NCBI GenBank assembly: GCA_963556255.1
Contig: OY744604.1
Coordinates: forward strand, 73,324,279-73,388,278
Origin: Allolobophora icterica
Lineage: Eukaryota; Annelida; Clitellata; Crassiclitellata; Lumbricidae
Direction: 5' to 3'
DNA: 64,000 nt
Below, in pieces: positions 592 to 56,575 of the stretch; position 1 is the first letter of the stretch; every line of letters begins with the position of its first letter. The notes below the pieces were generated by a model that was not told the DNA's origin, did not search any database, and saw only the letters and a program-made list of their open reading frames with translations. The translations under genes and the position numbers were made by a program.

Positions 592-906
592 CCACAATTG
601 CAACGATTGAACTAAAGGAGGCGAGGCTGACATCAACGCATGTGTAGACACCTGCCTCGGCCAGAGTAGCGCTATTTATCACTAGGTTGCATACTCCAGG
701 TCCACCTTTTTCAGCAGAATACTTTAAATACCCGGAGTTGACGACGCAGAAAGATGCAATGACTACGGTATTTTCTTCCGTTCCGTCTCTGCTCAGAGTC
801 CAACTTGGAAGGTATCCAATTGCATTACTTGCGCAGTCCAGCTGCACTCGACTGCCGAAGTATGCGGCGATATTCTTTGGTGCATTTGTGATTTCGCTAT
901 ATGGAA
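592..906 (-). CDS. Gene B exon: first Ig domain
   Basis: Acceptor TAG precedes position 906. The exon encodes an Ig fold with VQLDC as the first cysteine strand, the core tryptophan in LPSWTL, and GVYTC as the second cysteine strand. Two further cysteines (ASFC and GVCN) could form an extra disulfide. The donor reads G|GCAAGT, a GC-AG type site, and gene A has the same. One codon is missing relative to gene A in the loop after NSGY. Confidence 0.85.

Positions 907-56575: not shown

Follow-up and report, generated by a model that had tools for sequence, protein, structure and literature searches.

A same-strand array of predicted CUB-Ig receptors with tyrosine-containing tails on chromosome 3 of the earthworm Allolobophora icterica

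Two neighbouring minus-strand genes of the earthworm Allolobophora icterica, called A and B, raise the question of what kind of receptor joins three CUB domains to a set of immunoglobulin (Ig) domains, and what such a receptor is used for. They lie on chromosome 3 (C3) in the window analysed here, a stretch of 64,000 nucleotides corresponding to C3:73324279-73388278. From this window alone, the initial annotation had proposed a tandem family of CUB3-Ig3 transmembrane receptors with a signalling tail. The present analysis follows this proposal from the exons of the two genes to the whole genome, and then to the roles that such receptors may play.

Genes A and B were confirmed at the positions and on the strand listed in Table 1. 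Gene A extends from 56575 to 27251 of the window, where its 12 coding exons join in phase into a frame of 777 codons that contains no internal stop and is closed by a TAG codon. The encoded order is a signal peptide (SP), three CUB domains of two exons each, a V-type Ig domain (V), an Ig-like domain devoid of cysteines (E), another Ig domain (I), a transmembrane segment (TM) and a cytoplasmic tail. Ten exon frames of gene A were run against Pfam. The first halves of CUB1 (40.4 bits, 4.1e-10) and CUB2 (54.1 bits, 2.2e-14) matched PF00431 (CUB) above its curated cut-off of 21.4 bits, while that of CUB3 scored 20.2 bits and fell slightly under it. CUB3 of gene A is devoid of its first cysteine, the codon being TAC versus TGC in gene B. 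Ig families were matched by the V and I exons below cut-off (28.1 bits at best for V versus a cut-off of 30), and no Pfam match was obtained for the second-half CUB exons submitted or for the cysteine-free exon. Protease, EGF, LDLa, sushi, discoidin and MAM domains gave no match in the same 10 frames. An open reading frame at 33203-32841, between the V and E exons, was rejected as an exon, as it had no Pfam match and the frame closes without it.

Table 1. Coding exons of genes A and B in the window (position 1 is the first nucleotide of the window)
Gene	Exon	Position	Strand	Content
A	1	56497..56575	-	start codon and signal peptide
A	2	55445..55617	-	CUB1 first half; GC donor (GCAAGT)
A	3	54573..54744	-	CUB1 second half
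A	4	48760..48938	-	CUB2 first half; Pfam CUB 2.2e-14
A	5	47767..47929	-	CUB2 second half
A	6	46887..47065	-	CUB3 first half; Tyr in place of the first CUB cysteine
A	7	41331..41496	-	CUB3 second half
A	8	36186..36503	-	V-type Ig; extra conserved Cys pair; GC donor
A	9	30899..31228	-	Cys-free Ig-like domain (E)
A	10	29129..29374	-	Ig domain (I)
A	11	28446..28574	-	transmembrane segment
A	12	27251..27450	-	cytoplasmic tail; ITIM-like LDYATV; stop TAG
B	1	18252..18330	-	signal peptide
B	2	17208..17380	-	CUB1 first half; GC donor
B	3	11326..11497	-	CUB1 second half
B	4	8614..8792	-	CUB2 first half
B	5	8163..8325	-	CUB2 second half
B	6	7296..7474	-	CUB3 first half
B	7	3041..3206	-	CUB3 second half
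B	8	592..906	-	V-type Ig; GC donor

In gene B, eight exons join into an open frame from 18330 to 592 on the minus strand. The last four exons, seen at first in gene A alone, were located for gene B just left of the window (stretch L043); its E, I and TM exons are 80-83% identical to their gene A counterparts, and its tail has an A-like start and then departs from the gene A frame. Exon lengths (A/B) are 79/79, 173/173, 172/172, 179/179, 163/163, 179/179, 166/166 and 318/315, hence equal for 7 of the 8 shared exons. The boundaries SP/CUB1, CUB1/CUB2, CUB2/CUB3, CUB3/V, V/E, E/I, I/TM and TM/tail are all in phase 1 and the intron within each CUB is in phase 0, in agreement with the common exon lengths, phases and domain order first described for the pair and with the phase 1 reported for its domain boundaries. 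The 12 junctions counted initially have to be read differently, since the 12 coding exons of gene A make 11 coding junctions. An AG acceptor found directly upstream of the ATG, and kept in all 7 copies of the gene in which a signal exon was found, suggests that the twelfth belongs to an intron in the 5' UTR.

The window also contains reverse-transcriptase-like open reading frames. One, recognized by eye, spans about 790 codons at 14783-17155, is partly microsatellite and sits in the CUB1 intron of gene B; others were observed at 18601-19713, at 24785-25432 and, in the last intron of gene A, at 27474-28067.

How far the family extends was seen from exon-wise searches of the genome (1,117,693,669 bases in 328 contigs, one haplotype). 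The V exon was found in at least 21 copies at C3:72.80-73.55 Mb, all on the minus strand and at 67-100% identity, of which 19 cover all or nearly all of the exon and 20 are free of stops. The E exon is present in 14 copies of the array. For CUB, 39 of the 150 matches scored (from 1,124 candidates) fall at C3:72.80-73.58 Mb, again all on the minus strand, and a tail-type exon at 73.591 Mb extends the array rightward. The whole array is thus a same-strand one at C3 72.80-73.59 Mb, with copies on both sides of the window, and the tandem family proposed from two genes is confirmed on a much larger scale.

Eight copies, A to H, were recognized in 244 kb made of the window and stretches L018-L035. 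Copy A is a complete gene. All 12 exons of A and E were found in one screen, E having a TAG in its tail, and the twelfth exon of F, the tail, was located afterwards; the 12 exons of F were assigned by position, with a signal exon 14 kb upstream. A signal exon was found in 7 of the 8 copies, H being the one in which it was not. Copy C has a TAG within CUB3, copy G a 2.5 kb assembly gap at the expected start of CUB1, and copy D no I, TM or tail exon in the 3.4 kb that separate it from the next gene. The TM exon of H shows only weak similarity to the others (E 0.007 at best), and the H tail was assigned to it by position. Two donors of A and B, one internal to CUB1 and one at the V exon, read GCAAGT with GC instead of GT. 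At CUB1, a GT donor is seen in D and H and a GC donor in A, B, C, E and F, that of G falling in the assembly gap; at the V exon, C has GT and the seven other copies (A, B and D to H) have GC. The retention of these GC-AG donors (at window 55617-55445 and 36503-36186 in gene A) in most copies could favour exon choice.

Apart from the array, the assembly contains a 28 kb bacterial contig (C257, L014) that carries a fused cbb3-type oxidase, looks Bacteroidota-like by eye and would come from a symbiont or a contaminant. Two inverted COX1 copies with in-frame TGA codons, about 0.3 kb apart, were observed at C8:61145195-61147845 and are probably a palindromic nuclear insertion of mitochondrial DNA. 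In the mitochondrial contig itself, ATP6 and ND5 are separated by a long TA repeat (L017:2786-3240). This contig is read with the invertebrate code and shows the gene order typical of annelids; among named hits its ND2 is closest to that of Aporrectodea caliginosa (78%), other Lumbricidae coming next.

The layout of gene A is not that of the whole family. The initial annotation took three Ig domains to be common to its members; this does not hold, since 7 of the 21 V exons, when paired by position, have no E partner and in the three E-less genes that were read (C, G and L064) the TM exon directly follows V. No E or I exon was found between V and TM in these three genes, where blastn gave nothing at 0.01 and only chance-level traces occur, either in the wrong orientation or interrupted by a stop, the best one (E 0.021) being of the former sort; the controls A, E and H were positive for both exons in the same test. 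Both C and G have CUB exons, L064 having been read without its CUB region. The seven E-less V exons coincide with a single clade in the V tree (support 0.90), and a random pick of 7 among 21 would give these seven about once in 116,000. A single loss or gain in the common ancestor of the clade would explain the pattern.

The V exon encodes, by its canonical residues and its modelled V-set fold, a predicted V-type member of the Ig superfamily. C24 and W35 are invariant in the 17 aligned rows, and the YxC motif is found in those rows that extend that far. An extra cysteine pair at 53 and 73 is likewise invariant in 17/17 domains, including two relatives from other clusters. The fold model (pLDDT 80.8) has neuroplastin as its best Foldseek match (E 1.7e-7), followed by antibody VL chains. 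The E domain is less easily placed. The canonical cysteine pair is absent in 12/12 aligned array copies, the model is poor (pLDDT 61, from a shallow alignment) and has no significant Foldseek match, and neither Pfam with the E alignment nor a PDB sequence search gave a credible family. The top VIA-align rows, at middling scores, include DIP-alpha, nectin-like 4, SYG-2 and sDscam. With a model of this quality, the Ig nature of E is drawn mainly from homology to the relatives on C2 (L044), which keeps both cysteines, and C13 (L063), which keeps one. These suggest that E derives from a disulfide-bonded Ig domain, so that what was first called a cysteine-free Ig-like region did prove free of the pair, and is now most likely to be read as an Ig domain that lost it.

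Selection across the array was estimated as mean dN over mean dS, by pairwise counting, for nine exon types with 5-21 copies, the SP, TM and tail exons being left out; pairs with undefined dS were dropped (4/28 for CUB2 first half, 1/28 for CUB2 second half and 2/28 for CUB3 first half). The ratio ranges from 0.22 in the first half of CUB3 to 0.47 in V, which indicates that the exon sets of A and B go beyond chance. Coding constraint, purifying overall, thus acts on the array copies. Pairs with dN above dS were 10/91 for E, 4/28 for CUB1 second half and at most one for every other type. Within V, pN/pS reaches about 1 in windows 7-18, 52-60 and 76-84 and is 0.2-0.8 elsewhere; the variable stretch 52-60 falls between the extra cysteines 53 and 73. 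In E, pN/pS is about 1 near both ends of the domain.

Relatives of V also exist outside the array. At 27-45% identity, they cluster on C13, C9, C4, C2, C1, C6 and elsewhere on C3, their numbers being lower bounds (150 scored of 483 candidates, and 150 of 190 in a second V search). The two that were read, L044 and L063, are 37-39% identical to the array in V and share the same four cysteines. In L044, V is accompanied by E and two Ig exons, and the 4.9 kb preceding V contain no CUB; L063 combines V with E and Ig, shows no TM exon by simple scan, and has upstream sequence too short for judging CUB. Among the 150 CUB matches scored of 1,124 candidates, none was in the V-E-Ig clusters outside the array. 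The simplest reading would be that a V-E-Ig core is ancestral, that three CUB domains were added in the C3 array and that E lost its disulfide there. The array would then differ from its own relatives on C13 and C2 by an apparently array-specific CUB part, V cysteines, E and Ig being common to both. It illustrates how a receptor family may be rebuilt, with phase-1 exons linking a CUB3 module to a V-E-Ig core, loss of the cysteines from the middle Ig-like domain and two Ig domains lost or gained between sister groups.

The search for relatives also brought out other clusters. At C13:45-53 Mb, V-Ig exons form a very large cluster that occupies both strands, and at least 27 full V-Ig copies, 66-100% identical to one of them, were counted at C13:47.9-49.9 Mb. 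Dense CUB clusters were observed at C3:91.2-93.1, C8:67.7-68.7, C1:61.9 and C1:96.7-97.0 Mb, where at least 29, 17, 22 and 7 CUB matches, respectively, were counted among the 150 scored; those on C3:91.2-93.1, C8 and C1 had no V-exon match among the 148 V matches listed.

The cytoplasmic tails point to signalling. Fourteen were read (A, B, E, F, G, H, L038, L039/L040, L064-L068 and one at C3:73.567 Mb, the next tail right of H), those of L065-L068 and 73.567 Mb as tails alone without ectodomain. Two tyrosine motifs in an ITAM arrangement, Yxx[LI]-x9-Yxx[LI], occur in 4/14 tails, namely H, L066, L067 and 73.567 Mb, which therefore fit the ITAM consensus Yxx[LI]-x6-12-Yxx[LI] as predicted motifs. 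The first motif is YxxM in L065 and L068 (the tail exon of the latter with an upstream TAA), YxxV in F and YxxW in L064, and the nine-residue spacing is found in 8/14 tails. The first tyrosine of the pair is missing in six tails (A, B, E, G, L038 and L039/L040), G retaining the second motif alone. PPxY is also present in F, G, H and L064. In H, the ITAM-pattern tail lies behind CUB3-V-E-I exons. Shuffling of this tail gave the pattern, which had been sought after the fact, in 49 of 5000 cases; what really supports an H-type ITAM is its conservation among copies, which are related and not independent. A genome search with the H tail returned 13 rows at E<=1, the weakest near chance, of which 12 lie on C3 at 72.79-73.59 Mb on the minus strand and 5 contain stops.

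Gene A is a different case. Its tail is without Yxx[LI]-x6-12-Yxx[LI], and its LDYATV fits the loose pattern [ILVS]xYxx[ILV], which 1888 of 20000 shuffles (9%) also produce. LDYATV was discarded as a hallmark of the family, as it was found in no other tail read; other loose-ITIM matches, in H and 73.567 Mb, lie inside their double-tyrosine motifs. The signalling tail claimed from gene A is therefore weak in that gene, and the stronger signal comes from other copies of the array.

Taken together, A and B belong to an array of at least 21 same-strand copies of predicted type I receptors that probably serve immune recognition, and the array is best read as a birth-and-death family with ITAM and non-ITAM members that may signal through tyrosine tails. 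The word recognition is here our inference from architecture, copy turnover and tails. The predicted ectodomain would present the CUB domains followed by the V-type Ig, either alone or joined by two further Ig domains, ahead of the TM segment and the tail. Its CUB/V head, with the variable stretches of V, may bind a ligand on a microbe or on another cell. On clustering, the ITAM copies would then be phosphorylated by a Src-type kinase and could recruit a Syk-type kinase and activate the cell, while copies of the gene A type, with a single ITIM-like YxxV site, might dampen the response or only modulate it. Gene duplication and loss would keep altering the repertoire. The array is a concrete and testable candidate recognition locus in an annelid.

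Other readings of the same data have to be weighed. The receptors may have been tandem-expanded for adhesion or guidance in neural, epithelial or gamete contexts, with tails that tune adhesion and no immune role, which we regard as unlikely but worth keeping in mind. The best Foldseek match of V is indeed a neural adhesion protein, the VIA-align rows of E include DIP-alpha, nectin-like 4, SYG-2 and sDscam, and overall dN/dS is below 0.5. However, birth and death of copies, two architecture groups and ITAM-like tails are more usual in recognition receptors, and the limited protein database searches found no one-to-one known relative.

A narrower version of immune recognition concerns grafts. 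No receptor gene for earthworm graft rejection was found in the literature searched and, to our knowledge, none has been identified. According to a review (PMC2248247), the rejection of foreign grafts by earthworms is specific and shows memory, so that allorecognition is one possible role for the array. That the array is the very core of earthworm histocompatibility, made of paired ITAM/ITIM-like CUB-Ig receptors that arose independently of Alr, fester and KIR and underlie lumbricid allograft rejection, is a tentative idea to which we give little credence.

Most of the array could also be decayed duplicates of a single ordinary CUB-Ig receptor, one or two genes being still functional and the tail motifs being remnants. 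Copies B, C, D and E, which have a stop, a shifted frame or missing exons, fit this picture, as do the stops among the H-tail rows. It is nevertheless improbable given the dN/dS of 0.22-0.47 across copies, the near absence of truncated or interrupted V exons and the complete gene A.

Whether the receptor is already known under another name was addressed with protein databases and the literature. The full-length protein matched 46 proteins among 7,988 candidates scored, each with a CUB accession and none with a common Ig accession, and the Ig half (V-E-I-TM-tail) matched nothing at E<=0.1 among 7,996 candidates scored; these searches being seeded by exact 5-residue words, the absence of matches weighs little. 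In a limited literature search no CUB3-Ig3 receptor was described; for CUB-Ig as such it brought up a paper on neuropilin-1 and complement. The claim that no receptor of this layout has been described therefore stands within the limited searches made. An orthologue of the tolloid, cubilin, neuropilin or Neto-like type, suggested by the fact that CUB proteins such as tolloid-like and cubilin-like ones were the sole matches, is very improbable, because those matches are 23-38% identical to the query, cover 12-54% of it and leave the Ig half unmatched, and no protease, EGF, LDLa or sushi domain was matched in the 10 gene A frames run against Pfam. In tolloid, cubilin and neuropilin-type proteins, CUB is accompanied by protease, EGF, LDLa, discoidin or MAM domains. 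CUB is what the array has in common with them, and nothing matched its Ig, TM and tail half in the database search.

Closer parallels are offered by families of recognition receptors. KIR and LILR are tandem Ig receptors with inhibitory and activating members and ongoing gain and loss of genes; their activation goes mostly through adaptor proteins and they are not known to have CUB, whereas in the array ITAM-like motifs lie in the predicted tail of the receptor itself, and CUB domains are present. In Hydractinia, the Alr complex is described as clustered IgSF single-pass transmembrane genes with at least 41 loci, including likely pseudogenes (PMC11067881), and some of the candidate genes reportedly carry ITIM and ITAM motifs (PMC12065747). 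By these descriptions Alr resembles the array in its clustered genes and tail motifs, but it is cnidarian, no CUB is mentioned in the descriptions available, and its polymorphism and function have been demonstrated. In Botryllus, FcoR is described as a type I multigene family with a signal peptide, a V-type Ig, two C2-type Ig domains, a TM segment and a tail with ITIM, hemITAM or core Yxx[ILV] motifs (PMC12065747). It shares with array members of the gene A kind a V-type Ig followed by two more probable Ig domains, TM and a tyrosine tail. Unlike the array, it is described with a sushi domain, without CUB and with each gene paired to a fester gene; a sushi domain after V had no match in the 10 gene A exon frames run against Pfam. 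On the earthworm side stand the three CUB domains and the ITAM-like pairs; occurring in an annelid, tails of this kind would add to the convergence already described for cnidarians and tunicates.
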